64,000 nucleotides of DNA from Ricordea florida (Eukaryota > Cnidaria > Anthozoa > Corallimorpharia > Ricordeidae). Below, one piece after another: positions 7,394 to 47,746 of this stretch (positions are counted from its first letter, which is position 1; each line of letters starts with the position of its first letter). The position numbers and the translations under genes are program-made. The DNA lies in contig OX453287.1 of NCBI GenBank assembly GCA_949710005.1, positions 14,439,366 through 14,503,365 on the forward strand, written 5' to 3'. The notes beneath the pieces are model-generated. The model was given only the letters and a program-made list of their open reading frames with translations. It was not told where the DNA came from and did not search any database.

Positions 7394-7401
7394 GAATTTT
7401 A
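7394..7401. repeat. Target-site duplication GAATTTTA, left copy
   Basis: This octamer immediately precedes the left terminal repeat (GGATCACTCACC, from 7402). It is repeated exactly after the right terminal repeat at 38222-38229. Confidence 0.92.
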
Positions 7402-7527
7402 GGATCACTCACCGTTTCTGGGAACGGAGTCATCTTTCTACCGACGCTCAAAAATAAATGAATAGGATCACTCACCGTTTCTGGGAACGGAGTCATCTTT
7501 CTACCGACGCTCAAAAATAAATGAATA
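7402..7527. repeat. Left terminal inverted repeat, tandemly duplicated
   Basis: Two direct copies of the 63-bp terminal repeat stand head to tail: 7402-7464 and 7465-7527. Each begins GGATCACTCACC and ends AAATAAATGAATA. The right end of the element has one copy only. Confidence 0.9.
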
Positions 7528-7559
7528 GAGACTCGAATTTTCAAGCGGCACTTCAACAT

Positions 7560-7835
7560 TCCGGAGGAGGACGACTCGATTTTCACTCCAGGACTTGACG
7601 AGGAATCGATGATTCTGCGAGGATGACTCGATAAGGCACCACAACTACACGAGGATGACTCACTGGGACACGGTTGACTCGACGACGACAACGAGGATGA
7701 CTCGATAAGGCACCACAACTACACGAGGATGACTCACTGGGACACGGTTGACTCGACGACGACAACGCAACGAGGCGATGACTCCACGAGGACGACTCGA
7801 CGAGGCAAGATGTGTCGACGAAAACTACTCGATGA
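7560..7835. repeat. Left subterminal minisatellite of the inner element
   Basis: Irregular units built on GAGGATGACTCG and GACGACTCGACGAGG. A 74-bp block (about 7618-7691) is repeated exactly at about 7692-7765. The GAGTCATC core also occurs in the terminal repeat itself. The open frames across it (Ser-rich) are spurious. Confidence 0.85.
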
Positions 7836-9171
7836 GTCACGGCAAGGGATACTTGAACCTAGTAGTCAGGGTTGTTGACAATTGAAAGGGACATTAGTTT
7901 TGCGATATTTCTTTTTTTATATTATTTTAAATGTTAAATCTATATTGAAATTATGGTCACTTATCCAATTTTTATTCGGCTGTTTTATTTCACTCATCAA
8001 TCCATTGTTCTGAATACTAAAGTTTCATTTCATTTTCATCTACATAATTATTATATGTATAAGTTAGTCAGCCTTTTGACTTTCTATAGTTCAGGAATAG
8101 ACAGTACTAACGGTATTGGCGGTCCCATAAGCGCGTCAACACGTTGGATCAGCCTGTAAACCCAACATTATTTTTTCTCGTTTCAAAGAAATATGTTCTA
8201 GTGTTTCCAATGTACATGTTGCAGAGGGTTACCTATTTTCTGTAAGGAGTACAAGATTGGGAAGATTATCATTCAGAAAATACCTGCATGCAAGAATCTA
8301 GTGGTTTACGGACTTTATGGCGGAAATTTGCCACCCTAATACTCACAAATATACTGAATATATAACAACCTTTTTAGTCCAAAAAACGAAAGAAATGAAG
8401 CAGGTTCTTAAAAAAGGAGTTTGAAGTTTGCAAATTGATAAGACAAGAAAATACTGTACCAAACTGTACCAATGTGAGTCGTGTAATTCCAGAAAAAAAA
8501 CAGGGTTATAAAAACTACAGATTGTAATTGTCTTCATGGACCTTACTGAAAGGCACCAAACTCAAGTTCCTTTATAATTACTTCAAAGGTGTAGGTTCTT
8601 ACACGCAGATTTGTAATGTAACCGATATGATTTTCTATAAAAGCTTATACATTTTTAAATAGTATTGAAAAATCCACATACCATAATAATTAGTGTAATT
8701 ATTGAAACAAGGCTGTGCTCTAGTTTATATTGAAGGGAAACCCAGAGCTCTGAAACTGTGAAATCCAGAGTGATTTCGTCATTGCTCAAGAGCAAAAAGA
8801 GGGTGCCAGGGGCTTTTGGGTACTGCTAGAGCACCCCTGAATATTTATATAATATGAAAAGAAACTACTCAACTTCGTCAACTTTTTTTTTTATTTACAA
8901 TTGTCTTCTATTTTTTTTTGACAAATTATCCTTAATACTTTAACAGCACCCTGGGAGCACTTGTGAGGCAAAACTGACATTCCAGCACTAACCATATCAG
9001 ATAGGTTTACATGGAGTATTTAGTCATAAATAATATTTAATACAGTGAACAATTTATTTTTTGACTAATAATAAAGGGGGAGAGGAGAGTAATTTATAGT
9101 GGGAGAGTTAGTTGAAATGCCGGGGGTGGGGCAGGGGGTAGAAAAGGATTTACAGTAACAAAAGCTATTTT
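7836..9171. other. AT-rich non-coding interior of the inner element
   Basis: No convincing coding exon, RNA gene or repeat boundary was seen. Short open frames do not show splice signals or recognisable motifs. Confidence 0.35.
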
Positions 9172-12100
9172 TCATTTTTTTGGATGTTTTATGTTCTGCT
9201 GGCCTCTGCTCTCCTCCTGCTCTGTTGTGTTTTGCTCTGTAAGAGAAAAAAAAAAGATACACATAGTTGCTTGTTGTGTTATGTTCCTTGCCATATTACA
9301 ACCACAACCTTTTTTTCTGAAGTATTCATGTAGCTGAACCAATCCCCCACCCTCTTTTACACTTCTTGCTCACCTTCCACAGAACCTTTACTTACATGAG
9401 AGGAGAACAGGAGAGTGACTTCTATACTTTTTGTGGGTCAATACTACACCTCTTTTCAGCTTTTTCAACGATAATTTTACCATTTTATTAAGTGAATGTT
9501 AAATAATTTTACCATTAATTTTATTATTACTCGAGTATATTTTCCAGTGGTTATTGAAGCTTCAATTGCTTATGTCTTGAGGGACAAGTTTGAAGGCCAT
9601 CAATTCTGAATCATATTTTACTGCTTGTTTTCTTATTCTTCTTTTTTTTTTTTAACTTCCAACTATGTTGAGAGTTATTTCACTTCTTGGAAGTTCCCTA
9701 CGCTTGCTATATGTGTAATTATATACAACACGCTGTGAAGTGAAAACTGATTTTTCAACGCACCTTTAGACATTACTTTGAAAATTCAACTCCTTAAATG
9801 CTTCCTGCATACACCTGAAATGAAGAAAAAAAAAGGTGGAAGTATGTCTTTCTAGAAAGACATACTCCCACCACCGCAACAAGTGCTCATGGAAAGAATC
9901 CTACGCGAGGTTTTTTATTCCCGTAAATTTGCTTTCCTGTGTGAAACTTTCTTTTTTATTATTCGAATTTCAATTAATTTACTCCTCCTACAATCTCTCT
10001 TAGCAAATGGTCCAGTTTGCATTTTTGGAAGAACACAATCAGTATCCTCAGCGAGTCAAGACCCAGAATCCTCAGCGAGCCAAAGACCAGAATCTTCAGC
10101 GAGTCAGAATCCAGAATCCTCAGCGAGTCAAAGCCCAGTTCCAAAAACCCAGACTCATTCTCAGCGAACCAACCAGATTCATTCTCAGCGAGTCAACTAG
10201 ACTTACTCTCAATGAGCCATCCAAACCTATTCTCAGCGAGCCAACCAATCATGTTCTTGGCCAGTCAAGACCCAGAATCCTCAGCGAGTCAAGGCTTAGA
10301 ATCCTCAGCGAGTCAAGACCCAGAATCCTCAGCGAGTCAAGACCCTGAATTCTCAGCGAGTCAAAGCCAGGCTTATTCTCAGCGAGTCATCAGGACCTAT
10401 TCTCAGCAAGCCATCTGAACCTATTCTCAGCAAGCCATCCAAACCCATTCTCAGCGAGTCATCATGAGCTATCACTGCCTGCCAATCAGACCTTTTTCTA
10501 AACAATTGTCATTTTTTTCGTTATTTTTGCTGACAGAGTATCTTTTCGTAAACAAAAAGATGCACAAAGTCATCTTAGATAAAAAAATACATGCAATGAG
10601 ACGAGAGGTGCAAAAAAGCCTTTTTGTTGAGTATTGTTCCTTTTTTGATAGTATTTTCCTAACTAGTCCTCAATAATCAGAGTCATACATATTTCATAAT
10701 CTTACATGTACATGTAACCAAGCAGAATATTAAGACAGTCAGTTTAGGCATTTAAACTTATTTTGTTGTAATTAACCCTTTAGTTCAAACTCAGGTTCTA
10801 CTGTATCAGCTGCTTAATTTATTTAGAATTTATTTGAAAGTAAATTTGATGATAAATGATGAAAGGAAGACTTTGCCTACTCATTTGAAATCAGAAAAGT
10901 GAGGGTCTTCATTAACTTTTTTCCTTCAGGCAATTAAGTCCTTTGAGAGCACATGTCTTTGCATTCTCTAGATGGTTCACTCTTTGGCTTTAACTTCAGT
11001 TTTCTTCTATAATATATCTGTCACTGGACTTCTGGTGTCTGGAATTTTCTTTCTAGGAGAACTTCGATAAGCCTGTATATAGTATCCTTTCATCTACTTG
11101 CTTTCTTCTTAGACATGTTTGTATGTCTGTAATAACTTCATCTGTTTTCTGATTAGTTCACTCATTTTCTTCACACTTGATACACATGGTTTCTTCACCA
11201 AGAGGAGATTGTTTTTCTTGATTCGCAAGGTTTCTCCACCCTGTTGTATTCCTCTAGATAATTGCATTATTGTTTCTTTTCTGCTGTTAACTTTTTTTTA
11301 ATTCTCTTCTCTTGTTCCTCTTGTGTTTTCCATAATATTGTGAAAAAGAAGACACACTGAACTATCAGCACAACATATTTTACTACTCCATAGAGTATGT
11401 ATGCATTGTATTGCTACCAGTGATGCTGATGTCTTTGTGTTTCCATTTGGTGTCCTAAGCTTTAATTATAATAATATTGACTGTTATAAGTTTGTCTGGC
11501 TTTCGGATATCTTTATGAGAATCTTGAAAGTACCCTCATTGGTCTGGACTTCCGTGACAGTGCTAGAAATACTAGTATGCAATATTTATCCAACATTATA
11601 AGATTGTATTGGTTATGTTTTTGCAATTTAGGACTAAAAATGGTTTAAATTTCATCAATTTAACTTTAATATGAACATTAATTTTCATTTTATGTTAAGT
11701 TTGCCATTGTACATGTACATGTAAGTGGTGCTATTACAATAAAAGAGAACAAAAAATAGGTATGAAAACTCCTCAATGGGCACCTTTTCGCTCTATCTCA
11801 GTTTCTTCTATCACCTCCTTTTTTTTATTTGCAGGAAAAAAGATTGATTACAGACCTTTCTTCAGGAAATGCAAGAATTTCAGTCCAAACACACCCAACA
11901 AATTATTCTAAATAGATTTAAATATTAAAATTTTCTTTGTTTGAGAAATGGCGGTACTATAAAACTGCATTTTCCCCTTTAGTCTATAGTATGTCCTTAT
12001 ACAATGAATTGGTCTCTTTGTGGGTTAATCAGCACTTAAAAAGAAATAATAATACTAATACAGTCTGTAATAATTAAGAGATTTCATCCATGAAGCACTC

Positions 12101-13387
12101 ACCTATGCATGGCTGCTTCAAAACCATTGTCCTAATGTTGCCTCCATAACAAACTTCTTGTCTATCAGTCTGTAAAAAGAAAAAAAAGTAATTCACCTGT
12201 TATCACATTTACATTATTAGTCGGGCAACCGACTATAGGTTTACACTCGAGTTTCATCGCAAATCGCAGTCACGTGCAATGGGAAATACCGCAGACACAT
12301 AATACGGGCGCAAACTTCTTTCTACGATGTCGAAGTCGATGGCGAATATGTTGAAAACAAATGGTGTCATCTTTTCTACGCTCAAACATACAGACCCACA
12401 AACCGTTCGCGGTAGGCCCACTCTAAAAGATGGCGTGTGTAATGAGCGTATATTTCGAAACGGGTCGTTCCGTGAACTGAACATAAAAGAATCAAATGAT
12501 CTAGCGAATGTCTCACTAGAATCAAACCAGAAATCAAACGAGTTACCAGTGAACAGAAAATGTGGACAGAGTGATGGCTCGCGAGTGGTGCCTCGCGATG
12601 AAACTCGAGGAAATGACAACAAAGATGCCACGTTGGAAACCAGGACCTTGGTACCCTTAGCATTTCTTTTTTGGACCACTCCGCACCATAAGTGGTCAAC
12701 ACTCATAACAGCACGTCTACCTGTTGCCCGACTTACGATCTTAGATCGTCTTGTTTGTAATAAAGACATTGACCCTTTATTTACATTTAATCCCATCTTG
12801 GTAGACTCTTTCTTTTTATCTATATCTTCACTTTTGTACTCTCCCTCGTAGCATTTCTATCTTGTATGGCACTCATCCCCAAGAAATGGTTGCTCACATT
12901 TGAACCACATTGTTTTCCTGATTTCAGCCAATCACAGCTACTGTTCTTTATTCTATTACACTATCGAAGATGAACTTAACATCGATGTCGGTAAGCATGT
13001 TAGCTATGTTTATCAACTAAGAATTATTTTGAATGAATAATGAACCAATTCATGGGCTCCTTTACGGCTAGACTTCAGAATACCCGGCCACTTATTTACA
13101 TACTGATGAATAACAAAAGAGTCCATTGTGATATACCTCGTTCTTCAAAAGCCCCCGACACATGTAAATGAAGTGGACGGGTATTCTGAAGTTAAAATGT
13201 AGTTGAATGCTGATATGTAGCGAGTATTACATAGGATCGAGGAAACGATTAACACCTTAGTGTTATGCGCTGACCTTTACTTGATTATGAATGAACTTAC
13301 CTTAAACCCCTGGTGCGAATTTTCTGTACTAGTTTTCTGTAAAAAAGTCTTCGTATTATAACCCTTCCACAATAGTGACGCCGCCAT
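9172..13387 (-). CDS. Small multi-exon candidate gene, function unknown
   Basis: A first exon (13301-13387) starts MAASLLWK and ends at a perfect GTAAGT donor. Exon 2 (12737-12856, 40 codons, Lys/Glu-rich) ends at GTAAGT. Exon 3 (12103-12169) ends at GTGAGT in phase 1. A phase-compatible terminal exon lies at 9172-9236 (acceptor TCTTACAG), giving about 113 residues with a Gln/Glu-rich tail. Further exons may lie in between, for example an open Lys-rich stretch near 11.1-11.3 kb. The gene is divergent from the Merlin transposase, with starts about 320 bp apart, so the two may share a promoter region. I do not recognise the protein. It may be host cargo or part of the element. Confidence 0.35.
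10040..10466. repeat. Internal minisatellite with CAGCGAGTCA core
   Basis: About 17 imperfect units of roughly 24 bp (CCTCAGCGAGTCAAGACCCA and variants). All three frames are open across most of it, which reflects the unit composition rather than coding. The CGAGTCA core is shared with the terminal arrays of the same element. Confidence 0.85.
13072..13192. repeat. Hairpin-forming inverted repeat
   Basis: 13072-13100 and 13163-13192 are inverted copies of about 29 bp (ACTTCAGAATACCCG...) with two or three mismatches and a 62-base loop. It lies between exons 1 and 2 of the minus-strand candidate gene. Confidence 0.75.
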
Positions 13388-13708
13388 GCTAAGCCAGAGA
13401 GGACGCGAATTCGATATCCACGTTGTACACGTGAGATGCCCATAAATGGATTTTAACGTTACAAGGGATGTCACCAAAGTCTTGATCGAACAATGGGAGC
13501 ACAGAACTCATTTCCGGCGGTATATTTTTGACAGGGTTGTTAAAGATTACATGACACGGTCACAGCAAAGGTTCATATAAAACCATTTCAATATTTCATC
13601 AATTTGCCCCAAAAAAGGCTGTTCGTTTATGGGTAATTGACCTGTAGGCCCTCTGCTGGAAACATGTGCCATCAAATCCTCATAACAGCTGCTCGAGTAC
13701 TGTGAAAT

Positions 13709-16211
13709 ATGTCACAAAAAAGGAAATCAATTATTCGCTGTTATACCGGAAGTTACTTATTAAATACACCAGAAAATTTAAAGCCATTCTATTTCGCTCG
13801 GTCGACGCATCTCGCAGACGCTATAAATTGTAAGGAAACTTATCCATCAAATCCGTTGGAAATGGACCTGGATTATTTTACTAGGTTAAGGCAGGGCCCT
13901 GTAGCTCGACTTATCAGTTGGCTGCAACATCGCAGTTTGCTGGCGAATCCTCTCCACTGCTCTGGTTGCAACAAGGATATGGAGTTCGTTGAACGCGAAG
14001 CAGGACACGTTGACGGTTATCAATGGTTTGTTCCATCTCTTTTACTATTGTTATTTATTTTGTTCTCGCCTTTCGGGAAACTGCCGCGAAAGCGTTACTC
14101 TGGTCGGCCCCAGAGGTTTTTCTCGATTTTTTTTTTCCGCATGAGAGAGCAGCGTTGAAAAATCAAGAAAAAACTTTTGTTGACCAGGGTACAAAAGCGT
14201 CCGCTTTGTCTGATAAATTTACCAAATTCAACATTGCTTGATCAACATTGTTCTTTGACATCAATGGGCAGGAAAATTTTTAAGAAATCTATCTTTCTAT
14301 TTCACGTTTATCAAGAGTCTAGATGCTATGATTGTAAGAGACGAAAGAGTCCAAAAACGTGGGCACGTGGCAATCAGTCCAAACAAAGGGGTGTGGCAAC
14401 CGAGAAAGTGGAGACAGGCGAAATGTCGTAGATTTTTTGGAGGGATAGGGGTTTTTGAGAGAATTGAGAAAGGGAGTTCCACTGTTTGATTGTTTGTTTG
14501 TTTCTAAAGGGGCTCACAACAGTCCCGTTCATTTTGTTTAATTTTGCCAATTACTCGCCCTCAATCGCTATGGAACTTAAACTAAGCAAAGAAATTACAT
14601 GTAAATGACAAAATCAGAGATCCGACACAAACAAATACTTATCCTGAGCATTATTTTTGAAGTTGCAATCAGCAGGGATCAACTTTGAAAAACTGTTAGG
14701 CTGAACAGTTTCAAAAACCTTAATTTCAATCCGTTTCCATCCTCTTCAGTTTTGCCCATCCCTGGCATCTCTTGTTTCTGTTATGTTATTTGAATCTTCC
14801 TTTAAAGATCTAAGTGGTTATTTTTATGTTTCTCTTAATTTAACGGGCATTTTGGAATTTCCTAATTTGGCTGAATTTCGTGACACAGCTCCTTTAATTT
14901 CTCCTTTTCACCCGTTTTTCCCCTGCGAGGCCGGTAAAAAACGATCTCGCGGGGACTTAGTTTTTTTTAACCTTTTCTATAACCTTTTCTTTTAGGAGAT
15001 GTAAAACATGTAAGAAAAGGCGCAGTCTGAGGACAAATAGTTTTCTTGGAGAATTTCCAAAAATAAGCTTGGGTGAACTCCTTCTCTTGATTTATTTCTG
15101 GTCGATGGACGTGACCAGGGAAAAGACGGCCAGAATGATGTCAGTCAACGTAAATCTCGTGTGCCGGGTCTTTCGGCGCTTAGAAGATGCATGCTCCCTT
15201 GACATAGAGCGGAATCCCTTTATCCCTTTTGGAGGGACATCAGTGATCAAGTGCGATGAAAGCAAATTTAATCACAAAGCTAAGGTGAGGAAAAACAGAA
15301 ATAAGGTCAAAGGAAAGCTTGGTAGAATCGGTATCCGGGGGCCTTGGCTTTAACTATAAACAAGAGCTCTTAGTATAGAGTATCCTGATGCAGCGTTAGA
15401 AGACGTTACACAATTATCAAAGTCAGTCACATAACAAAACAAAAATAACAACTTATATCATATGAATGCGCAATTTCAAACGACATCTCGAAAAGCGCAG
15501 TATAGCAATGGTAAATTAAATAACTCTATCAATTGATTCCATTAGTTTTTATATTCCTGAAAAATGAACGCTAGAAATAAAGAAGGGGAAAAAAGAACAC
15601 CCAATTTTACACGTGACAAGAATTCAATAGCCGTTTTGTAGTGCTCTATAATCAGAAACAAGAATTTATCTCATAATTCATTTTTCCCGTTTCCTTTTTA
15701 AGCTCAGTCCTTTTCTGCGATTAAGAAAAATAATATTCGCGATCTTGATCCGATCTTTGATGTGGTCAATTAAAGGACAGGTCTCAAAGCAAATCATGGT
15801 CGACAAACTCCCCAACCAGCTAAAGATAATTGATTTCAGTGACGTTTTTGGTAAAGTCTTTTTATTTTCTCATAACAGTACAATAGAGGACGTCATGCAC
15901 CAGACTCATGGGTTTTTGGTGTGATCAACACCGAAATGAGGCCTTCCCGGGGATTTTTTCAAGTCGTGGACAGACGCGATCGTGCGACTCTTTTGCCGAT
16001 TCTGGAGAGGTGCCTCCAACCTGGAAGCGTGGTATACACCGACGATTGGGGAGCGTACAGCAATCTCGAACGCCACCTTCCTAATCATGTCGGCCATCAT
16101 CACGTTGTGGTCCACCGTGACAACTTTGTTGATCCGGCTACTGGGGTCCACACACAGGAAGCGGAGTCTGCCTGGGCTACCCTGAAGTTGCCAATCAAAG
16201 GTCGAAGTTAA
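13709..16211 (+). CDS. Merlin/IS1595-type DDE transposase, probably C-terminally frameshifted
   Basis: Three exons join in phase: 13709-14025, 14996-15284 and 15879-16211, giving 312 residues from the ATG at 13709. An N-terminal zinc ribbon is formed by CSGC in exon 1 and CKTC in exon 2, split across the first intron just before the GYQWRC motif. The catalytic triad is visible as CDES (Asp193), YTDDW (Asp257) and QEAES (Glu298), the spacing and motifs of the ISXO2-like/IS1595 fold used by Merlin transposases. The reading frame stops at 16209. A family-like C-terminal stretch (GIERRDLQ...) resumes in another frame at 16214-16342, which suggests a 5-base insertion near 16208-16212. The enzyme would cut and paste the inner element by binding its ends. 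Confidence 0.8.
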
Positions 16212-16213
16212 GG

Positions 16214-16342
16214 GGGATCGAGCGTCGTGATCTGCAGTCCTACTTGGATGACAGAATGTGGAGACAGTGGAGAGGGCTGGATAATATCATCGCCAATTTT
16301 TTGCCTGTTATTGCTTCACAGTATAGGGACTATTCAGTGTGA
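16214..16342 (+). pseudogene. Out-of-frame C-terminal remnant of the Merlin transposase
   Basis: This frame reads GIERRDLQSYLDDRMWRQW and continues to a TGA at 16340-16342. It matches the usual C-terminal extension after the catalytic Glu in this family, but it is shifted relative to the upstream exon by the bases around TTAAG at 16208-16212. Confidence 0.65.
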
Positions 16343-16508
16343 CTGGAGCAATCGATTAATACTTAAGCCGAGGTTTATTAGTTATGTGCCAACTACATGT
16401 TAAGGTGTTTCAAGAAGAGTTTGTATATATCGTACAACAAATTCAACCAATTTCAAAATCTTAATAGATGTCAAAACAAAATTATTTATCAGGCAGGAAT
16501 TATATCAC

Positions 16509-17160
16509 CTTTAAGGTGTTCCGATATAGTTTCAGAGGCCATACCGATATTTTTCAATCGCTTTCAAAGTGATTTCATCCTTGACTGATCGCTATAACAT
16601 TTTCACCAATGATTGACTATAGATTGAAATTTGTCAAAATGTAGGTTTTAGTAAATCGATATTACTATGACAACAATATAAATGACTCAAAGCGTCATAG
16701 TGCTGCTTAATATTATATTTCGATGCTAGGAAATTTTGGAGTGTTTTCGTTCTTGCGATCTTAGAAACTAGCCCGTTTTCTCACCACCCGCTGTATAAAA
16801 TTTGGACGTTTAGCGCTTTTTGGTATTTCTCTGAAACGAAAATCTCTTCAGATAATCTTCTTCTTCTTCTTCTTCTTCTTTGCTTAACAGCAAACTTAAA
16901 ATTGCTAGTGTTGGTTTTTTAGTAGCAGGTCTAGATCGCGCAAATTTCGCTTTTCTCAATTTCAAAGTTTGTTGTTTAGTGTTGTCATAGTAATATCGAT
17001 TTTACTTAAACTACATTTTCAAAACTTTCAATCCATTACCCAATAACTGGTGAAAATTCTATAGCGATCGGACAAAGAAAAATTAAAACCACTTGTAAGG
17101 CGATTGAAAAATATCGGTATGGCCTCTGAAAAACTGTATCGAAACACCTTCATTGAGCCT
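16509..17160. mobile_element. Foldback/MITE-like element, ~650 bp
   Basis: About 165 bp at each end (16509-16675 and 16978-17158) are diverged inverted copies beginning AAGGTGTTYCGATA. A TTC microsatellite lies at about 16856-16880. There is no coding capacity and no clear target duplication. Confidence 0.65.
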
Positions 17161-17746
17161 TAAAGTTAGAAATTTAAATCTTAGATCAGTTGCATTGGTA
17201 GAAATCTGAATCGCTTGATTAAAATTGCTTTGTTAAGTTTGTAGATAAGTGTACTAGAAGATCACATGTTGAATAAGAAAAATCAAACGGAAAACAGAGA
17301 AGAAGAAAAGAACAAAGGGAAATGGCGATAATAATACTCACAAATACCTAAAGGGTTATATCGTTTAGTTGTTAATAAGTATACCGAGCCTTACCGAGTG
17401 TCCTTTTTTCCGTCTCATTGTAATAATAGAAGCCTACATTGATTAAATGTGATCAATGTGGAATCTGTCTGTTTTTTTTAGTTACGTTTGCCTTAATAAG
17501 CGAGTGGTAAGGGGTCCGGTTTCCGTATTACTTTTCGATTCAACACCGGCATGGAATAAAAGCAGGCTCTTATACGTGAAGTTGTTAACAGCCCCCCCTC
17601 CCCTCCCCCGCCACGGGCGAGCCACAGTTGCTCGGCAACTTTTGACAACTTCTACCACTTTTAGCATAGTGAGCAACTTCTTAGGTTTTTGACAACTTTG
17701 TTTAAAAAAACAAAAATCGGCTAACTCAAAAAAACCCAGTCAGGAA

Positions 17747-17800
17747 CATCCCGTAAGCGACCGCCAAAAATGTCAAGCCCAGTTGGTTGCTTACGGGATT
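17747..17800. repeat. Short inverted repeat CCCGTAAGCGACC / GGTTGCTTACGGG
   Basis: Stems of about 13 bp surround a loop of about 25 bases. It may be the tip of an old foldback repeat. The surrounding 17161-20559 contains poly-C (about 18713-18729) and short exon-like frames but no gene I can support. Confidence 0.5.
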
Positions 17801-20559: not shown

Positions 20560-21140
20560 ACGTAGCTAATTCATATTTAAAAACTAAACGATTAATAAAA
20601 GAGTTTTTAAAACGCATATTGTTAACCTTAGATTTGAAACAAGATTTTGATTATAACTGGATAGTTTAACACGAGGCATAATAGATAAAAGTGCATGGAT
20701 GTTCTTTAGCATTAGAATCTTGTTTTTGGTAATTTTACAGTCTTGCCTTTCTAAGAAATCTTAAACACTTACGGGCTTAGACGAATATTTCATTTCTAAA
20801 TAGCGGTCTAAGAAACATTGTACAGGTGTAAGATCGGACTCGGACGCGACGTAGACAGATAATGCGTAATTGATATTAGGCAGGACTATTGCATTAAAGA
20901 GAAGGTTTATTTCTGACTGATTGTACCCCTGTCACATCTGGAAGGCGACGCCCAAAATCTCTACTTCTTTGCAGCTTGGTATCATCCCAATAGATGAATA
21001 GAGATCGCGATTGCCTGTCTTTTTGATCGTCAACTCTTTACATTTGCTTGAATTGCAACACATTCCTTCTGTATTTCTTGTACAAAAGAAATGCCAAGAG
21101 TCTTTCGTGGTCTCATTATCAGTATTCAAAATAGAGGACA
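20560..21140 (-). pseudogene. Decayed CR1/L2-like LINE reverse transcriptase fragment
   Basis: On the minus strand the C-terminal half of a non-LTR reverse transcriptase can be read: KCKELTIKK, EILGVAFQ, then, after a break, FNAIVLPNINYALSVY, followed by stops. These blocks lie downstream of the YADD centre in CR1/L2-like enzymes. Internal stops and shifts show it is dead. Confidence 0.65.
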
Positions 21141-21419
21141 TGCCGCCTTATATTATATTCAGTTGTAATACCGTACTTGTATTTGGTCTTTATTGTTCTC
21201 TGTATAGATGTGTGTGTGTCTGTATCTGTTAAATTTATGCACTAATCAAATCAAGTCCCCCCCCCCTTACCAGCCCCCGTAATAGAACAGGAATTAAGGC
21301 GTCTATGCCGGGGATTTAACGCGTATATTACCGGTGTGAAGTCTCCGGGGGAATAATTTAACACCTAATTTTAGCAGGGATTTTAATAATGCATCGGAAG
21401 TTACCTTTAGTTATTACCC

Positions 21420-21570
21420 GGGAGTAGTCCTTTATATAAGTCACATAGGTATGTGCCGGCCCAAAGGGTATGGTGTTTGGGTCTTGGTGTGAAAACGGGT
21501 ATACACTTTGCCCATTTTGGTCTGGAATCGGGTATGCTTTTCAAGGAAACTACGGGAGTGTATCCTACAA
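21420..21570 (+). repeat. Dispersed repeat with CCAAAGGGTATGG block
   Basis: The text GTATGTGCCGGCCCAAAGGG and CATTTTGGTCTGGAATCGGG resembles a dispersed repeat I recall from coral genomes. This assignment is from memory only. It abuts the LINE fragment that follows. Confidence 0.4.
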
Positions 21571-24655: not shown

Positions 24656-25018
24656 CTGCTACTAGTATACGACATGCAACTATATCCATCTCGTAATTTA
24701 TTTCTCGCTGTAAAATCGCGTCCAACAGAGGCATTACAGTACCTCTACTAGAGACAGACAGCAAGCGACAACTGAATCATCGCATCTGGGATGGTCACTT
24801 AATATTGGGCGATTTAATCCACTTAATTTGTTTTGTATTAAAATTTTGTATCGAGATGGCCATGAGAGATTTTAAAATTGAGAAAAACTTTATTTGATCT
24901 GATGTTATGAAATCATACTGTAACTAAGATTATCAACAACTTTAAAGCTTTAACACATGTATATATTATTTTTCTTCTTAGAATTCGATGCTACAAATCC
25001 AAAAAAAAAGGGCACGAC

Positions 25019-28000: not shown

Positions 28001-31000
28001 AAATTAGTTGAGACACTTTTCTTTGTCCTAAAGGGCCTTCCTGGCATTTTACTGACTTCAAAAGGAGAAAATAAAGCCTTCCCTTCCCTTCCCCCCCATG
28101 CAATGTTGTGCTGCAGTTCAAGGTACCATAGGCAAAGCATCAAACACCCAAATTTTGAATGGAGCCCAGGAGGAGTGTGGATTGTTCTGTTCTTTGAAGT
28201 TATGCTACTTAAAATAAGTATAATGTCTCAACAATTTTGTCAACGATTATTGGTTTTGTTTCCAGCACTGGTCAGTCAAGATTCACTTTTCCCGAGTGTG
28301 TTGTCGTATGTTTCACTATTATTATAGTGCAAAAATTGATTTCCCTTGAGGTGAACAAAGAAGGCAAGGGCTAGTTAAACTATATTAATATTATTTTTTT
28401 TATTCAATTTGTAATCATGTAGATATGCCATCAAGCTTCTCAAGATGGAAAGATAATTGTTTTAGTGGTAATGTCACGTCAAGGAAATGATAGTCATCTT
28501 GCAAGGTCACTACAAACACTAATTCTAATTGAAAATTTTAGTCTTTTTATAAACTAGAATGTTGAGGGTATCACTGCATAAATTTAAAACCCATACCACA
28601 TATAGAGATATAAAACAGAAGGCGTGACTTTTATGGTGGGCATCACTACTTGGATGGTGTGAGGCGAAGCCCATTTATAGAAATAGACGTAAAATTTTTG
28701 GTTACACTACATTGAATAATATCTAGCAAGTTCACTGTTTGAATGAAAAAAAATTGATCCATTTGGAATGATAATGGCTTTGTCATTCTTTCTGAATAAC
28801 TTGGCTAAGAATTTCAACTTGAGAGTGGTTTTGATTAAGATACCTAGTCATCCAACCTCATGCAAGTACTGCAAAGTATTTTTCTAAATAATTAAAATTT
28901 ACTATATTATAAGTTAAACGAATAACACCTTGCACTGCTAGAGTAACTATTCTTGCATTGTTTATTTGTTATTGTTTATTTATTCGTAAAGAGAATTTAT
29001 AGTTCCTTATAGTTAGTAAGCGCAAATAAAAAATACAAATTCAACATGTGTACATAACATCTAAGGTTTCTTGTTTTCCCAAAGGCTTCTTAGTGGCATC
29101 TCCGAAGCTAGTGATGTTTATTTTTGGTTGGGGATGGCAGAGTCAAGTAATGGAAGACAAGGTGATTAGTATAGTTGTGATCAAGTCGTCAAGAAACAAT
29201 GTTAAATTTTTGTGCCTCTGCATTTTGTATTACATTAACATCATTGATGTACCTGTTTGCAATTGTATTTACCAGGTGAAAAATAGAACAAATAATTCTT
29301 CAGATCATAAGTATATAAATCTATGTTAAATAATGCATGTAAAACTGTAAATGTATGGCTGCCATTTTTAGTTAAAGAGAGATGATCGAAAGAGGGTTTT
29401 TTTGTGTCTTACCTATTCATGGCTTTGTCTATAGGTTCTATGCATGAAAAAAAATTGATTTTATATAAGTGAAAAAAAATGAGAAGAAGAATAACAGAGA
29501 TCTTCAGCATGATCAAATGCTCACTTGACCATAGACTTGACTACTTAATAATTTGTACTGTCAAGTGATAGTTTAGTTTATATATTATTTGGAACTTGAT
29601 CACTATGTAATATTTTTGATGTGGACGATTTTGTATTTCTTTCCAGTGAAACAAAAATTTGGGGACAACAATAAGGATTCTGAGGTGTTTGTTGTTGCCC
29701 CCTCAACGTCACCTCTGAATCCAGTTCTTGTGGATCGCTTCTCAGGTGAGATTTAAGAAAAATTCCTCAACAAAAGATTTTATTTTTTACCCTGCACAAG
29801 GCATAATACATTGGTATTCTGTCTTGTCTTACTGATCAAAAGCTTGCTCCTTCAAAAAAAATATACATTATAAAGAATGTAGGTAAATAGTAAACTAAGA
29901 AAAGGCAACCAGGTTACATGGCATCTTGATAAATGTAATAAATTACTACACGTATATAAATTAATATTGAATTTTTGAGCTGTTTTTTTCACAGACCATG
30001 ACTAGTTTATAATATTTTCTGCTACTAAACAGCATAGCTTACACATCATTTTAATTTCTCCATAACAAGGGAATCCAGGAAAGAAAGGATGATAACGATT
30101 GTAAGTCAATTTCCTTTATGCAATTACAGGGCAGTCCCTTCAAGATTTAGGAGCAATAAGAGAAGCGTTAGAGAGGGGAGAGGCAGCATTGGGCTCACTA
30201 AGATCCTACCGGTTTGTTGTTGATCATTGTTATTGTTGTTGTTGTTATTATTATTATTTTTGTTATTTTTATCTTTGACAGTGTTAAAAGCTCAAGTTTA
30301 CAAACATACATGTACATCGAATAAGAAGATGCAATGGGTGGTACAGTCACTGGAGAATTTTGATTCCATTTACAATCCAGAGCTAATGATATTTGTCAAG
30401 AGTAATTTTTATCTCATCCTTATTACAGTGACAGAGAATATCAGAGAAGAGACCTTCTCCTGCAACAGAAGAAGGAGCTGGATGAATCGTTGAGGAGGGA
30501 CAAAGAGAAGAAGGTTAATGAAATAGCTTCTTTTGAAATTTTTACCACCTCTTAGTTCCAACTAGTGGAGCCTAGAGCATGAATACTGTACATATAGTAA
30601 TCAGTTCTTCAGTTATATAATTGCACTTTATATACTACTACACGAGAAATTTCTGCAATTTGATTGGCTTTGAGCAGTGACATTTCAGCTTAATTTTAAA
30701 TACCTACATGTGAATTTAAATTACAAAACATTTTGTGGATAGTAATATAAACAAGCAATAGCATGATATGTGATATTTTACATCATACACGTTAATACCA
30801 CTTGTGATATTTCAAAATTGTCTCAAATTTCACCCACCTAACAGCTTGTGAAATTACGTATAATAATAAAATATCACTCGTGGTATTTATGCCAAATATC
30901 ATTACAAATCATGAAATTATCTATACAAACTATTCTTATGTTTACCTGTTGTTTTATTTTCCCAATTAATTTTTCTTTTAGAATGAAAAGGAGAACATTC

Positions 31001-34000
31001 ATGAGGTCAGTGAGTCTCCATACGACCTGTTGTATTTTTTCTTTTTGAAGTTGTTTTTTCTGTTGACCTGCTGCATATCAGAAAATGGAATCCCTGTGGA
31101 TAAAATATCGAAATGCCTAAAATTTAATAACTATGGTGTGGTGTCTGCCAAACACTGGAACTAATAGTTTTGGTAAAGGCTTCACTACTATTTAACTAGA
31201 GTACTATACAGTGATGCATCATTTCTTTTTACTTGTTGTGGCATCCCAAACAAGTGCACCTCTGTTGGCTAAGCCGAGTTCACAAGTGGAGATACAAACA
31301 AACAAAAACAAATAAAATACAAAAAGGGTCACTCTTACTTGTCTTTTTATTACTTTTAGAAGGAAAAATCACAATGAGACATTAATTCAATAAGACCATC
31401 AAATTCAGTTTGTGACTGTGTCAACCACAGTCAATATATATCTTGACCAGAAGTTGATTCCATCAATGAAAAGTTAGTACGTACCAATATCTGTGGAATT
31501 AAGACAAAGAAAGTGGCCTTGTTGTCTGCTGTCTATCTATTGCAACCCAAAATGGAAGAAAAGGTTTAACTCTGTTGTTACCTTGAAAGGGAAGCTTTAG
31601 GACCTCAAAATTGATGAAAAAAATGTTATACATTGTAGTAATATTTTAACTTTCTATTTATTTCCAGCAAGAAGATGATGAGACTAGAACTAGTGAGGTA
31701 AAACAATATCATGCATACAATATACAAAGGTTGAAAAATTCAAGTCATTTTCAATCCAAGGCTTAAAATTAATCATTTTGGAATTGGTGCAGAAAAATGC
31801 TCCTTCTTAAGGAATCCAGCTATCATAAACTAGCAGCTGGGACTGACAAAGCTACAACAGTGCATGTTTGAGTCCCAGATGTAGGGTTTTGAACCCAGCA
31901 CTTTTCTTTGATAAGAAATCAACCTGGCAATATAGACATTGTTTGATCCCCCTTAGCCTGTTCCAGACAGGGGAAGAGCAGGCGAAGCTGGGCATGGACT
32001 AATAATTGACGAGGGAAAAAATGCCCCAGTTTCCCCTCCTTTTTGTTTCCCCTCATGTTTCTTTTGCACTTATTGCTTACAATTTAACTTGCTCCCCACT
32101 ATCTAAATGCCTGGAACAGGTTAGATCACATAACTAACATGAGTTTCTTTCCGTCTTTTCTTTTTTTTAGATGGAAGATATGAGTAAAGAGGTAAGTAAA
32201 ATATTCGTATATTCATTTTTTAAAACTAGGAATTCAATTTTTCATTTAAGAATATAATGGGCATGGAAAGCTGTATTTTCAAAATTAAGGTATTTTTATT
32301 TCAATGAGTTTGCCTGTAGAACGCTCTGCTCTCTTTTAAAAAATGTTCCGTGAGTAGAAACTCTCTCAAAACTGTAAGAATATTAGAATATTATACTTTT
32401 TATTTCCATTGCAGCGGGCTATTAGAGAGGCAAGGCACAAAAGAGTGTTAAAAGAAGACGAAAGTGGTTGGCACATAATTGTCAAAATGCCAAATAATGA
32501 GCGCATTAGCCGCTACATCAAGAAGAAATCATGTTACCAGGTACAAGCTCTTGCTAATCTGAAGTGTTCATATGTATCTCTGGGTATATAACTTTTAAAA
32601 TATAGAAAATACAGGCACTGTTACATGTTACTCTGCCTCCTGTCAAATCAATCCACCATGTATGTTGTATGACCATCATTTCAACTTAAAAGAGATAGAT
32701 TCTTTTAATTTCCTTAAAAAACCTTCCATTGAGATAAATTGCTAAAATACTTTTTTTGTTGTTGTTGTCTTTTTAGGCAGTCTATGACTGGGTTGGCCAC
32801 TCGGATGACCGGCCCCTCTTTTTTACCCTGCATGGAGGGGGAGGGGTGAAAAGACTAGAGGATCCTGTTGAAGGACACTGTGTGCTCCACTTATAGGAGC
32901 GAGTGAGTGTATTAATATTAAACAAGGAATCGAGACAATCATGAAGAGTGAAATTACAAACCAGTATTTCTGGGAAGAGTAACTATAGTCTGGACACAAA
33001 CAACCCTTTTAACAAGTTACCCACTTATGTATATATTGCTTGAGATACATGGAGCAATAATCGTAGACAATTATTGTAAATAATGTAATAATACAATAAT
33101 ATAATATCCAAAGCCAATGATGTTACAGAGCCATATCCTGCGTCACAAATGTAATCAAAGCGTGGTGTGTTAAGCGCTGATAATTTCTTTATCCTTCCTC
33201 CTTATTTATTTAACGAGTTGTTTACCAGAAATGCATTGGAAATTTTCCTTCGACCTGAATGACAGATTGACAATAGTTCTTTTTAAAGTTACTCGCACTT
33301 ATTCAAAGATACCCAAATCCTGGTACACAGTAGGGGGCCAAGCATAAGGGTTTTGGTGCCGTTTCACAGATGGACTTGTTTTAAAATAGAAGATCCAGGC
33401 TAATAGGTTAATAGGCCCGTAAGGCTTAACAAGTCCCACCCAGTGTATCTACCCTATCTACATGGACAGTGTTCAGTGCACATATCTTCACATGAAAAAA
33501 TTATAATTATTATTGTTGTTTTTTGCCCCAATGGAGGACATGAGCACCGTCAGAAAATGAAGATGCGGGTGACATTAAATGCTAGAGGGTAGCAAGAGAA
33601 CAATAATAATTTAAGCCAAGTAAAGTATCATTAAATGATCTCCTGATTCCACAGAAAGATATATTTCACGTTTCTAACCCTTACACAAAAATTATGTATC
33701 ATCCAAAAGAACAGTCCATGTCTTAACTGTAAGTGTTTTGATTATTATCTTGTACAGGAAGAGGAAGAAATGCTTTCGCTCCTTGGTTCTGAGGTAATAA
33801 ATTATTATTGCTTTAAGGCCTATGGAGTACAGCACCACTGTACTCAGAAAAGTCTCTGAGTTGTCTTCCCCAATGCACGTTAACTGTCCGTTGGACAAAA
33901 AATGTAATATTTAAATTAATAATAATAATAGTAATAATAATGTAACATTAATAGCAAATGTGAAATTTGGCAACTTGCTTTCCATGATTACAACAATATC

Positions 34001-35463
34001 ATGATATATTAGAAAGCCTTCTAGTATTTGTCCAATTTATGTTTACATTATGAAACATCACATAGAAATTATGCGGTGTGTACATGTACAATGGGCTGAT
34101 GTTGCGTCCTTGTTTTGCACAGGTGTCCTTAAGAGGATCATTGCCTAAGGGCACTGAGGATTTGTCCTCGACCTTACCCGGTAGGACTTCCAAAGTTAAC
34201 GTTTGTATACGTGATGTGAAGTGGTGACGGGGAAATTAATGAAATCTTCAAGTCCCACGCATGAAATGACTCCGTGATAAATTACAAAGTTCTTAGTTAC
34301 CCAGCTTTGAGCTTGCGCAAAAAAACAACATCTCTCATTACTTTAAAGCAATCCCAGATCAATAATAATAAACAGGTTGTCAAAAGATGAAGGTTCATAA
34401 AAGTCAATGAGCCATTTAATTTTCGTCTGATATTTCGGTTGGAGCTGAATTTGGACAATCTACTCATGCACATTACATTTCTTTATTACGTGACGTGTAT
34501 TTTTAAAAATTCTGGTTACTTGATTTTCTTTGGACTTTTTTTTATGTTGTCCATTTAAATGAACTTGTAGATGAAAGAAGGGATGATGATGCCATCCGAG
34601 ATGTAGGTATGGACTTAAGTTAATACAACTTTCTGTATACCTTTGACTGTCATTCCCACGGTACAACAAAACAAGTCAAACCATTTTCCTCATCATAACG
34701 TTTTTTGAAATGCTAACGTTACCTAGTAAAGAAACCGAATATGTAGTTTTTGGTGATAGTAATTTTTTTTTGGGTATGAAACATTAAGGTCCATCTGAGG
34801 CAAAGAGGCCAAAGTGGGAAGCAGATGTCACAGAAAAAGGTACAGTACATGTTACTGGGAATTTGTTGCTAGAATTTTTTTTATTTCTCTTCCGTGCAAA
34901 AATAGCACATTCGTTAGAATATTGTTTTTGTTTACGCTGTAGCTGGTTGTTGATGATCACAGTCAAGAGCCATAATAGTATAGGTGCTTAGGCCACGAAA
35001 TGAGCGATTTATAAAAAAATAAAAATAAAATGAGTTTCTGTACTTCGTGTCTAGGATTTCCTTCTTTCATTCTTACGTTTTCCAATGTGATGCACACCTA
35101 CCATATGCAGTCTCGAAAATCAATATTTACTGGTACTTTAGATTAATAAATTACAGTAATTTTTATAGCGGTAGTCACCTATAACCCCTTTCATAGGACA
35201 GTCATCATTTTATTTATCAAAAGTACTAGACCAAATAAATTGAGAATAAGGCAAGAACACGCAAAAGAGCCGTTAAGCACTCCCCTTGAATTTTCCAAAC
35301 CAGAAAGCTGGTTTGGAAACAACCCGTGCCTTGGCGGTTAAATATGGCGATGTAAGATTAATTTTTTTTATTTTTCATAGGGGAAAACAACGAAAAAACA
35401 AAGAAGAAGCGAAAAAGGAGGAAGAAGGCAAAGAATGTAGCGGGCAATGATGGAAAAGAATGA
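25019..35463 (+). CDS. UAS / coiled-coil / UBX protein (FAF1/FAF2-like), 20 exons, with an in-frame TAG before the last five
   Basis: Exons: 25019-25127, 25903-26334, 27074-27118, 27293-27358, 27715-27821, 28423-28505, 29085-29161, 29647-29745, 30130-30211, 30429-30513, 30982-31005, 31668-31697, 32171-32191, 32415-32540, 32777-32896, 33758-33793, 34123-34180, 34571-34606, 34789-34839, 35381-35463. Phases agree at every junction through exon 15. Order: a short start, a Ser/Thr/Val-rich region (37-180), a thioredoxin-like UAS-type region (about 219-345, with KIIVLVVMS and YFWLG), a charged helix (YQRRDLLLQQKKELDESLRRD), then a UBX-like beta-grasp fold (about 421-501). This order is that of FAF1/FAF2 proteins, which tether ubiquitinated clients to p97/VCP. 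Exon 15 ends in TAG (32894-32896), giving about 501 aa. Five further phase-compatible exons end in a Lys/Arg-rich tail. Confidence 0.7.
25389..25410. repeat. Poly-C tract in intron 1
   Basis: An uninterrupted run of about 20 C lies in the first intron of the UAS-UBX gene. Confidence 0.9.
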
Positions 35464-35527
35464 TGCTTGGCAGTTTTTTAATTATGGAAAGAAACATTCC
35501 AATTTCTTAAGTGATTAATTTGTAATA

Positions 35528-35795
35528 GGAAGAGGACCGAGCGGAGTCCAATTCGGTCTGTTATTGTACATTCAACTCACAATCTCATTTCTGATTGGCC
35601 GAAAGCGTGCAGTGAGATTTCGAAATCAGCGCCTGAGATGTCATCTACAGGCAACGTCACGGGTAATCATGTCATGTATGACCGCGGTGTATGATTTTTA
35701 CCTCGACCTTGATTATTCTGGATGTTACAAAAACCTCATCCAATAATTGTTAAGTATGATTACAGACCGAATTAGACTACATGAAGGTCTCCTAC
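35528..35795. repeat. Foldback repeat with GTCCAATTCGGTCTGT ends
   Basis: GGAGTCCAATTCGGTCTGTT near 35544 is mirrored by ACAGACCGAATTAGACTAC near 35763-35781. It resembles a small MITE I associate with anthozoan genomes and lies just after the last exon of the UAS-UBX gene. Confidence 0.55.
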
Positions 35796-36344
35796 CGATT
35801 AATCATAACTTTAACAAAATTTGTGATAATATAAGGCTCTATTTTTAAATCAAAACACAAGAAATTCCAAGACCTTTTTTTTGCCAGCTGTGAAAAAAGG
35901 CCATTTAAGTGCGCGTGTACTGTCCTATTGGTGCTGAAATCATGGCAGTTGATTGCCAATCCGATTTGAGAATTTTGTTGTAGTTATGATTAACTAAAAT
36001 AGAAAATAGAAGAAACAAATGAACAAATTGTGCGCTTAAATAGTCTAATTAGTTAACGCAAAGAAGCGGTTCCATTTTTCCACTGTGACAATGAGCCAAC
36101 GGCTTTGCCCGTCGTTATTTCTCGTTTTGATGACGACTGATTCCTAGATTGTGTTATACACTATGATGTCGAGAACTTTGCTGAGCTTGTTTTCTTTTTA
36201 CCTCAAAGTATCGGGCTTTGATGATTATGTCACTACTACTGTGAAACTCACAAAGCAGAAATTTTTATGGAATGTTAATGTGTTGCAATAAAATTTCCAA
36301 TAAGGCGCGTGCGAAAATATCCAGGCTTCACCTTTTTCTGAGTT

Positions 36345-36580
36345 TGACAGTACATGGAGGTGGGGGACCCCAAGTAGGTGGGGTTAGAAAAGAACCCTCC
36401 TCTACATGCAATCTTACTACCCGCTTAACATGTGAACAACAAAAATGTTGGCAAACCACATGTTTTGGCTTTTCTGCACTCACTTGCTGCTCTTGCTGCA
36501 ACTTTAAGTCCTGTGGCTTTCTATTGTTAATCAAATTAGAATGAGAGATTATATGGACAAGCGGGTTACATCACCTTCCT
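36345..36580. repeat. Probable dispersed repeat (GGTGGGGGACCCC / AGCGGGTTACATC)
   Basis: The left text TGGAGGTGGGGGACCCCAAG and the right text GAGATTATATGGACAAGCGG resemble the ends of a dispersed anthozoan repeat I remember. The open frames on both strands look incidental. Confidence 0.35.
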
Positions 36581-37829
36581 GGAGTCCCCCAACTTCATGA
36601 AAAAGGCCCTAAGAGTTCAAATTTGAAATTTCGCATGTTGCCTTTCATGATAACAACGTTACAGTATAATGCGTTTCTGATTTTAAGTGGAAATTTTGCA
36701 AAGTTTACATCGTAGTTTTCGAATGCACAGCTAATGCCATCTGTATGATCAACGTGAAATAAAATAGAAAATGTATATATTTAAATACATGGTTAGTATC
36801 ATGGCGAAAGAGCTTTCCCCATTAGGTTCTTAGCTAATTTTAACTTGCCGATTAATTTAAGGCAAGCTTAGTGCTAAATAAAGGAAAAACAAATTATACC
36901 GTCTATGCGTCTATTCTGAATTTAATTCACAAATGCGACGAGGAAAGCCCATTACCCGAGAGTAGAAACTGAATAGATTGGGGTTCTATATATTATAGTA
37001 AGGGTAATTTTTCAGTTTTATTTGGAGAATGGAATAAGTTAAAAATATATAACTGTACTCCATGTTTTAAACCACAAAATTTTATCTTTCTCAAAGTCTC
37101 AGCCAGGGGTTTAGGTTTAACATATTCTTCAGCTCGATATTCTTATAAACACCTGTATAAAGTGTATTGTTATAGGAAAAAAGTGTAATCCTAATCCGTC
37201 GACAATGTCAGACCCTTATCTCACAGATATTCTCTGGTGCAGAAGCAATCGATAAAAACCTTCCTGCCTTCTGTATAAATGTTTTTCAACTTTCTCCATC
37301 TGTTCCTCTACTCCATATGTTATAGCTTTGTTATTTACACCCGCTTTTTCATGTTTTGAGCAGTTAATGTTTTTTTGTTTCACTCATTTGGCGTTAAATT
37401 TAGCGACACAGCTCTTTTAAATAGTGACTCTAACTCATCCAGTTTTTCGGGGCTCCCATAACCGTTACTACTCTCTATCCCTCTTTATGAATAGTCTTTT
37501 GTAAACATTAAAAGGTGGAAAAATAAATTTGAACACAAGGAGAGAAAGCGCATGAATGTTTATGCCTGTAGTTAGTTGCATTAAACTCGTGATCTTGAAA
37601 TAAAATGGAGAAAACCATCAACACCATTATCATTCAGGTTACAAAATTGGCAGGCAAGAAGGTTGACAATATAATTATACTAAATGAAATGAAATGTGTC
37701 TATAATAATAAGATTGGATATAAATGTCATAAACAATAGACTGAACATTTCAAATGATTGAAAAAAAAAATAAAATAAACTCGTCAACACAATGCGCAAA
37801 ATGTCCCTCACAAACAACCCGACTACTTA
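36581..37829. other. AT-rich non-coding interior, right part of the inner element
   Basis: No convincing exon, RNA gene or repeat was seen here. Confidence 0.4.
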
Positions 37830-38150
37830 TGGGTAGTCTCGTCGAATCATCTTGCCCCGTCGAGTGATCCTCGCTTAGTCGTCCTCTTCGAGTCATCCCC
37901 TCATCGTCGAGTCACCCTCATTGAGTCGTCCTCGTCGAGTCACCCTCATTGAGTCGTCCTCGTCGAGTCACCCCTCGTTGAGTCGTCCTCGTCGAGTCAC
38001 CCTCGTTGTGTCGTCCTCTTCGAGTCAACGCGTCTCGCCAAGTAATGCTGCCTCATCGAGTCACATTCGGCGAGTCATCGTGTGTTATAGAGTAATCCTC
38101 GTAGGGTCATAAAGTGAAGTCGAGAGGTCCTCGTCGAGTCTTGAGCAGCC
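37830..38150. repeat. Right subterminal minisatellite of the inner element
   Basis: Irregular 18-20 bp units CGTCGAGTCACCCTCATTGA and variants. It is the mirror-orientation counterpart of 7560-7835, sharing the GAGTCAYCCTC core. Confidence 0.85.
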
Positions 38151-38156
38151 TTCGCG

Positions 38157-38221
38157 TCTATTTATTTATTTTTGAGCGTCGGTAGAAAGATGATTCCGTT
38201 CCCAGAAACGGTGAGTGATCC
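38157..38221. repeat. Right terminal inverted repeat of the inner element
   Basis: It is an inverted copy of 7402-7464 with about two substitutions, ending GGTGAGTGATCC directly before the duplicated octamer. Confidence 0.92.
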
Positions 38222-38229
38222 GAATTTTA
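38222..38229. repeat. Target-site duplication GAATTTTA, right copy
   Basis: Exact repeat of 7394-7401, next to the right end of the inner element. Confidence 0.92.

Positions 38230-47698: not shown

Positions 47699-47746
<48 letters not shown>

Follow-up and report, generated by a model that had tools for sequence, protein, structure and literature searches.

Evidence that a 30.8-kb block of Ricordea florida DNA is a copy of a giant Merlin-type transposon family with TRAF-like exons in sister copies

Merlin DNA transposons make target-site duplications of 8-9 base pairs and are usually compact elements of a few kilobases (kb), a size that is typical of them without being defining. The subject of this report is a 30.8-kb block with Merlin-type ends that lies within a 64,000-nucleotide (nt) stretch of the corallimorpharian Ricordea florida (GenBank assembly GCA_949710005.1, contig OX453287.1, positions 14,439,366 to 14,503,365), the whole of which is referred to as the window. 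The block is almost certainly a copy of a giant Merlin-type (IS1595-related) family whose ancestor, estimated at about 33-35 kb, combined inverted ends and their inverted subterminal arrays with a spliced DDE transposase close to the left end, an interior that is probably mostly non-coding, and TRAF-like exons. In the accessible parts of one account of Merlin families (PMC8101967), the elements are characterized by 8-base-pair (bp) duplications, ends starting with GG, inverted ends of 24-462 bp and a DDE_Tnp_IS1595 transposase that is described without an N-terminal Zn_Tnp_IS1595 domain; the transposase of one red-algal family has 319 amino acids, and 2.57 kb is given as the length of one family. 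The window family shares the 8-bp duplications and GG ends, and has inverted ends of about 64 bp and a DDE_Tnp_IS1595 transposase of similar size. It differs in its dimensions, 22.1-63.1 kb rather than a few kb, and no giant family appears in the same parts of that account (PMC8101967). Further differences are the two predicted introns and N-terminal zinc-ribbon-like cysteines of the transposase, and the TRAF-like exons found in three sister copies.

Several other large or cargo-bearing elements invite comparison. Teratorn, a piggyBac-herpesvirus element of 41-182 kb, is likewise a giant among animal DNA transposons, and it too has short inverted ends and a DDE transposase (accessible parts of PMC6431247). 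Its transposase, however, belongs to another superfamily, and the window element has no viral domain above the Pfam cut-offs in the parts scanned in six frames (window positions 8600-13596 and 17101-36997). Polintons, also called Mavericks, are 15-20 kb in length, make 6-bp duplications, have AG ends and encode a protein-primed DNA polymerase, an integrase and capsid genes. They resemble the window family as large animal DNA elements with inverted ends; the window family, in contrast, has 8-bp duplications and GG ends, and the same six-frame scan found no Polinton polymerase, packaging or capsid domain in the window element. Pack-TIR and Pack-MULE elements also hold host-like gene fragments between inverted ends (PMC8277862, in whose accessible text the word Merlin is absent), but the window family is much larger, has its own transposase, and no host parent of its TRAF DNA was found in the genome. 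Fungal Starships are again giant and cargo-carrying, yet they are classed by a tyrosine recombinase (accessible parts of PMC12134995), whereas the window family has a DDE transposase with inverted ends. Among the open-access PubMed Central papers listed in the literature searches, most of them covered by the start of the abstract, none describes a giant Merlin or one that bears a TRAF gene, a scope that does not extend to transposon consensus databases. The significance of the family is that an otherwise ordinary Merlin end-and-transposase system has moved 22-63-kb units several times within less than 1% divergence, so that a single genome offers the natural copies and exact empty sites needed for a direct test of the size limit.

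The element occupies positions 7402-38221 of the window, with GGATCACTCACC as its outermost left bases at 7402 and a right end closing with GGTGAGTGATCC at 38221. Its ends comprise the following features.

7394..7401, no strand: target-site duplication, left copy, GAATTTTA (from the sequence and the empty site)
7402..7465, plus strand: left terminal inverted repeat of the L type, followed from 7465 by a second, exact copy of 63 bp
7526..7860, plus strand: left subterminal array of CGAGGATGACTCGA-like units, a putative transposase-binding region (from the sequence)
37810..38150, minus strand: right subterminal array, in the orientation opposite to the left array (from the sequence)
38158..38221, minus strand: right terminal inverted repeat, R type (from the sequence)
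38222..38229, no strand: target-site duplication, right copy, GAATTTTA (from the sequence and the empty site)

The inverted arms, 30.7 kb apart, measure 67 nt at 96% identity including 3 nt of flank, which leaves about 64 bp within the element; they begin with GG (GGATCACTCACC...) and fall inside the 24-462 bp range of Merlin. At the left end the initial 63 bp occur twice as exact copies (7400-7462 and 7463-7525), giving two candidate left ends. Only the outer one adjoins the duplication and fits its right-hand copy; the inner end (7465) is preceded by AATGAATA, which has no match to the right flank. A GACTCGACGAGGA-like motif, with up to three mismatches, occurs 10 times forward and once in reverse in the left 600 bp, 16 times and only in reverse in the right 600 bp, and 3 times forward and 13 times in reverse in the remaining 29.6 kb.

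When the genome (537.8 megabases [Mb] in 48 contigs) was searched with the 61-nt left end, 31 matches were obtained (27 candidates, all scored). The family ends fall into two types, L and R, which diverge from about position 59 onward. Facing L and R ends form five long pairs, named here by their contigs: C9 (22.1 kb), C16 (30.8 kb, the window copy), C5 (38.6 kb), C2 (49.9 kb) and C12 (63.1 kb). Every pair combines a single L-type with a single R-type end and has an 8-bp duplication just beyond its outer borders; the duplications are exact in all five and differ from pair to pair (GAATTTTA, AAAGTAAC, AGCCGGGA, TCAACATT and AACCTGGT), an agreement that greatly exceeds chance. The copies lie on five different contigs of 24.7-47.9 Mb, and comparison of their 500-bp flanks revealed no match to one another. 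Blasted against each other, the five copies form collinear blocks at 96-100% identity per block, with no N. Measured along a ruler of 34,845 bp, the C12 copy without its two large insertions, pairwise substitution divergence ranges from 0.20% (window and C2) to 0.77% (C9 and C5) over 20,753-33,525 aligned bases per pair. Ruler positions 16797-21626 are absent from the window and 17342-29456, plus some smaller pieces, from C9; smaller pieces are missing from C5 and C2, and C2 is also without 21220-24319.

The target site of the window copy was sought with a 500-bp query of the joined flanks holding a single GAATTTTA. Of the 13 genome matches, 11 run through the full 500 bp without a break (three at 100%, seven at 99% and one at 94%), and the other two are the window's own halves, which overlap by exactly 8 bp; the insertion in the window is therefore exact. 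Taken together, five collinear copies with unrelated flanks, different exact duplications and empty sites imply that units of 22-63 kb moved whole, recently and serially. A sequence-only reading of this stretch had reported the inverted ends, the 8-bp duplication, the inverted arrays and a DDE transposase, all of which are present where it placed them, and had proposed that the block moved as one unit, as a giant Merlin. Both proposals are borne out by five giant collinear copies at unrelated sites, their exact 8-bp duplications, an IS1595/Merlin transposase and the 11 empty sites. The searches it recommended, for other copies of the ends and for the empty site, returned the 31 matches with five long pairs and the 11 uninterrupted sites, and its concern that the ends might come from unrelated short elements runs against five L/R pairs that have duplications and the same interiors. 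Its further suggestion of a composite, meaning two elements joined, is not supported, as every one of the five long copies has a single L-type and a single R-type end.

The remaining matches to the left end are single or doubled ends, or belong to a related family on C11 and C32. Ends that lead into element body occur at C9:21125905 (99-100%) and, at 91-94%, at C4:17749942, C3:12420726, C16:10213727 and C5:10104503, and additional element body was found near C9:21125905; further damaged or incompletely recognized copies thus exist. The C11 and C32 ends follow the giant family for the first 39 bp or so and then differ; this is a related Merlin family. The copy at C16:10193466-10213727 has an interior (95-96%) and a right end (91%) of the giant family, and nearby transposase exons at only 54-63%, a mixture that reflects either module exchange between families or a nested relative.

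That the giant form continued to move is indicated by one insertion in the window.

22785..23377, no strand: 593-bp insertion that among the five copies is common only to the window and C2; a marker of serial transposition (from copy comparison)

The insertion is absent with a clean junction from C12, C5 and C9. In addition, the window and C2 agree against the other three copies at 26 sites, compared with 9 for C9 and C5, 6 for C12 and C5, and 1 for C12 and C9. The shared insertion and the 26 sites therefore indicate that, once it had acquired the insertion, a giant copy transposed anew at giant size. Copy-specific insertions are also present: 12.0 and 16.2 kb in C12, 2.5 and 15.4 kb in C2, and 3.76 and 1.25 kb in C5, all with short direct repeats at their borders (7 of 8 positions matching for the 1.25-kb one, which has Merlin-type ends of its own). 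Nested insertions of 12-16 kb, at 28115-40098 and 42261-58488 of the C12 copy and 21917-37341 of the C2 copy, have AGTAG... inverted ends and 5-6-bp duplications; they are Polinton-like, a label that refers to end letters, duplication and size only.

The transposase gene is predicted to consist of three exons (13709-16211) separated by two introns with GT/AG splice signals.

13709..14025, plus strand: transposase exon 1, with zinc-ribbon-like cysteines; alternative start at 13862
14996..15284, plus strand: transposase exon 2, with the first catalytic D
15879..16211, plus strand: transposase exon 3, with the second D and the E; PF12762

Most full-length homologues start level with the methionine at 13862. 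PF12762 (DDE_Tnp_IS1595) matches the window's exon 3 alone at 5.3e-13 (49.7 bits) and the C12-type protein at 1.1e-15 (58.3 bits, cut-off 27). In an alignment with 12 relatives the catalytic residues are D142, D206 and E247, the last nearly invariant, with one relative ending before it. The best named protein matches are from Montipora, Oculina, Acropora, Actinostola, Pocillopora, Exaiptasia and Nematostella, which on their own make a hexacoral host very probable. An AlphaFold model of the Oculina relative P0003 (predicted local distance difference test score 85) has 42 matches in the PDB at E of 0.001 or lower, all retroviral integrases with low template-modelling scores of about 0.3; the model supports an RNase-H fold and nothing finer. 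A C-x2-C ... C-x2-C arrangement is present at the N-terminus, where all zinc-ribbon Pfam matches are below cut-off (the highest, in relative P0004, reaching 23.9 bits against 25.3). All three exons are open in two of the five copies, C9 and C12, and in the window the frame stops at 16211, after the catalytic E, with the C-terminal tail in another frame. As the anatomy and the duplications suggest, the transposase would bind the ends and arrays, excise the whole unit and join it to an 8-bp staggered cut. Copies with a damaged transposase, such as that in the window, may have decayed after arrival or may have been mobilized in trans by intact copies.

The interior was scanned with Pfam in six frames, with stops read as glycine, over 8600-13596, 17101-32102 and 32100-36997; the rest of the element consists of 7402-8599, most of 13597-17100, and 36998-38221. 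Within the scanned stretches no domain exceeded the Pfam cut-offs. Three matches fell below them (RVT_1 0.018, DUF5527 0.085 and EXOC6 0.038), and Pfam on single frames added further sub-threshold names. Two interior stretches deserve mention.

21818..22110, plus strand: possible reverse-transcriptase remnant (PF00078, E 0.018, 15.2 bits against a cut-off of 29.6)
about 25903..26334, plus strand: exon-like Ser/Thr/Val-rich frame with AG/GT borders

The Ser/Thr/Val frame stays in frame in an older stretch on contig C1 that is 5.8% diverged, with 13 nonsynonymous (N) and 3 synonymous (S) changes, which equals the neutral expectation and gives no sign of selection. Window 25600-28600 has 22 matches in the genome, of which 10 are at 90% or more and belong to the five-copy family, to partial copies adjoining family ends, or to the C1 stretch; the other 12 are at 75-82% and no longer than 218 bp. 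The C1 stretch has matches on the left side of the transposase as well (ruler 3243-3579) and therefore looks like the remains of an element, not a donor; the ends of this old copy were looked for and not found. No host donor of the cargo DNA was recognized in the genome. The greater part of the giant's interior probably consists of non-coding passenger DNA, some of it old repeats. Spliced cargo genes, which the sequence-only reading had proposed, are accordingly not confirmed in the window copy, where the scanned stretches hold no domain above cut-off and one exon-like frame; nor is the capture of host-like genes supported there, with no cargo domain in those stretches and none of 195 open reading frames (ORFs) showing purifying selection after correction.

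Some sister copies, on the other hand, carry a predicted gene that resembles animal immune-signalling genes. The corresponding place in the window is a short junction.

24833..24840, no strand: position at which about 4.83 kb including the TRAF-like exons is absent from the window; the segment is present in C12, C5 and, in good part, C2

In these three copies two neighbouring minus-strand exons, free of stops and gaps in every case, encode TRAF-type zinc fingers (zf-TRAF 0.022, below cut-off) together with a RING (RING_UBOX 4.9e-6). Since C2, the closest sister of the window, has the TRAF stretch, the window most simply lost it. A 1041-bp query of exon DNA, chosen to exclude a swamping 380-bp repeat, gave four scored candidates in the genome, all inside elements, and no host parent locus. 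The TRAF-like gene is best read as a long-standing second gene of the Merlin lineage; the term captured thus fits poorly, the TRAF exons being found only in sisters and seemingly belonging to the lineage rather than being fresh cargo. As a guess, its protein might modulate host ubiquitin or innate signalling in favour of the element.

Protein-level searches of the genome gave 80 TRAF-like matches and 158 transposase matches, of which 150 were listed, used and merged into 105 loci. For 36 of the 80 TRAF-like matches, a listed transposase match is no more than 10 kb away, against an expectation of about 0.3 with 105 loci, and 34 of the 105 merged loci have a TRAF match within 10 kb. By TRAF rank, the paired fraction is 2/3 for the giant copies, 22/30 for ranks 4-33, 6/17 for ranks 34-50 and 6/30 for ranks 51-80. 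If independent, 36/80 would have a binomial probability of 1.2e-64 and, without the giant copies, at least 33/77 (34 observed) one of 1.8e-58; these values overstate the pairing because several pairs, including six second-family loci, are copies of one family. The TRAF and transposase identities are 50% and 74% at C6, 41-42% and 57-59% at C16:14.72 Mb, C8, C11 and C14:9.76 Mb, and 38% and about 59% in a second TRAF-Merlin family. This second large family (C9:19546501-19559000, C16:2406501-2419000 and C15:4309501-4319000) is 99.6% identical over at least 11.3 kb at two loci, a third locus matching at 99.5% over 9.0 kb, and holds a TRAF frame (zf-TRAF 1e-8, above cut-off) together with transposase exons (PF12762 1.6e-16). 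Its right side closes with ...AAAAACTGATCC, a Merlin-type end whose reverse complement begins GGATCAGTTTTTGCTTCTGG, and carries CGAGCTCGATAA arrays. We lean towards a Merlin lineage of reef-coral-like animals that has kept a TRAF-like ubiquitin ligase for manipulating host innate or apoptotic signalling or silencing, and that has spawned giant autonomous units of 22-63 kb carrying tens of kb of passenger DNA. If borne out, the pairing would mean that a simple DNA transposon comes with its own host-interaction gene and acts as a vehicle that spreads TRAF genes. On C20, TRAF matches at 6945, 35450 and 63988 alternate with transposase matches at 26079 and 54584 at a spacing of about 28.5 kb, as in a tandem array of 28.5-kb units.

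A number of observations weigh against this account of a giant family with its own TRAF-like gene. Old nested repeats make up part of the 30.8 kb, a 210-bp L/R pair on C7 has no duplication (it looks like a deletion derivative), and several family ends have no partner. The transposase is frame-damaged in the window, without exon 1 in C5 and without part of exon 1 in C2. Few changes separate the copies and these show no sign of purifying selection: N:S against C12 is 2:0 in the window, 3:1 in C9, 2:0 in C5 and 3:1 in C2 for the transposase, with approximate exon borders, and 4:0 in C5 and 3:1 in C2 for the TRAF exons. None of the 195 ORFs comparable with the older C1 copy, which covers 12,138 of the 34,845 ruler positions, shows purifying selection after correction (lowest p 0.0066). 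A first TRAF exon and any C-terminal domain were searched for and not located, leaving two exons only. Finally, 44 of the 80 TRAF-like matches are more than 10 kb from any listed transposase match, and at 71 of the 105 merged transposase loci a TRAF match is lacking over that same distance.

The nested repeats (the high-copy repeat of about 550 bp, the inverted repeats resembling miniature inverted-repeat transposable elements [MITEs] and the weak reverse-transcriptase match), as well as the 1.25-16-kb insertions bordered by short direct repeats that other copies acquired, would fit a normal Merlin of a few kb that only seems giant through unrelated repeats inserting one by one at this place. 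Such a history is very unlikely for the window, because 20.8-33.5 kb align per pair at 0.2-0.8% among five copies at different sites, so that the enlarged form itself must have moved, and the insertion common to the window and C2 points to movement after enlargement. As an account of the window copy alone, local accretion is refuted by the enlarged body common to five copies; as the way in which the ancestor first grew, one-by-one accretion of repeats is likely. The C7 pair and the solo ends could also be taken to mean that two unrelated short Merlin-like elements face each other across 30 kb of host DNA. Each long pair, however, consists of an L-type and an R-type end with a duplication outside the outer borders, AATGAATA before the inner left end is unlike the right flank, and the interiors are alike in five copies; refuted by the five pairs, this reading is practically out of the question. 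Equally hard to credit is a segmental duplication or an assembly artefact, given the unmatched flanks, exact 8-bp duplications, 11 empty sites, and five contigs of 24.7-47.9 Mb with no N in the window or the copies.

A further alternative accepts the giant Merlin and treats the TRAF-like exons as functionless passenger DNA acquired by Pack-type capture, the pairing then arising from the copies of a few families or from TRAF-rich insertion regions. It is consistent with the two internal exons that alone were recognized in the giant family, with TRAF N:S values that give no selection, with the non-independence of the 36 nearby pairs, several of which are copies of one family, and with the second family, whose left end and duplication were not reached, so that TRAF is not strictly established within its ends. 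Against it, TRAF and transposase identities fall together across pairs of widely differing divergence, as for genes travelling together, and two loci of the second family, 99.6% identical over 11.3 kb, contain both genes in a stretch that closes in a Merlin-type end. We regard passenger status as improbable and retain the lineage with a TRAF-like gene of its own as the preferred reading.

The remaining features of the window concern old nested repeats and the host site of the element.

12214..12756, no strand: old nested high-copy repeat of about 550 bp, MITE-like (from a genome search)
16508..17152, no strand: nested MITE-like element with inverted ends, borders set by eye; inside blocks common to four sisters
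3781..43442, no strand: outer transposon hosting the giant insertion, with 542-nt inverted repeats at 3781-4322 and 42901-43442
5335..7223, minus strand: frames that form the downstream part of the outer element's gene, left of the insertion and lacking any Pfam domain above cut-off
38249..40143, minus strand: frames that form the upstream part of the outer element's gene, right of the insertion and likewise lacking any Pfam domain above cut-off

A 2.6-kb query including 12214..12756 had 2159 first-look candidates, 40 of which were scored, mostly on that repeat stretch. The giant sits between two minus-strand frame blocks of the outer transposon, presumably in an intron. The outer transposon is a young family: 11 further places match the 500-bp site, 10 at 99-100% and one at 94%. 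Beyond it, long GA microsatellites occupy 47661-48935 of the window, and a minus-strand frame at 47878-49029 has a reverse-transcriptase match at 1.6e-5 (25.2 bits against a cut-off of 29.6).

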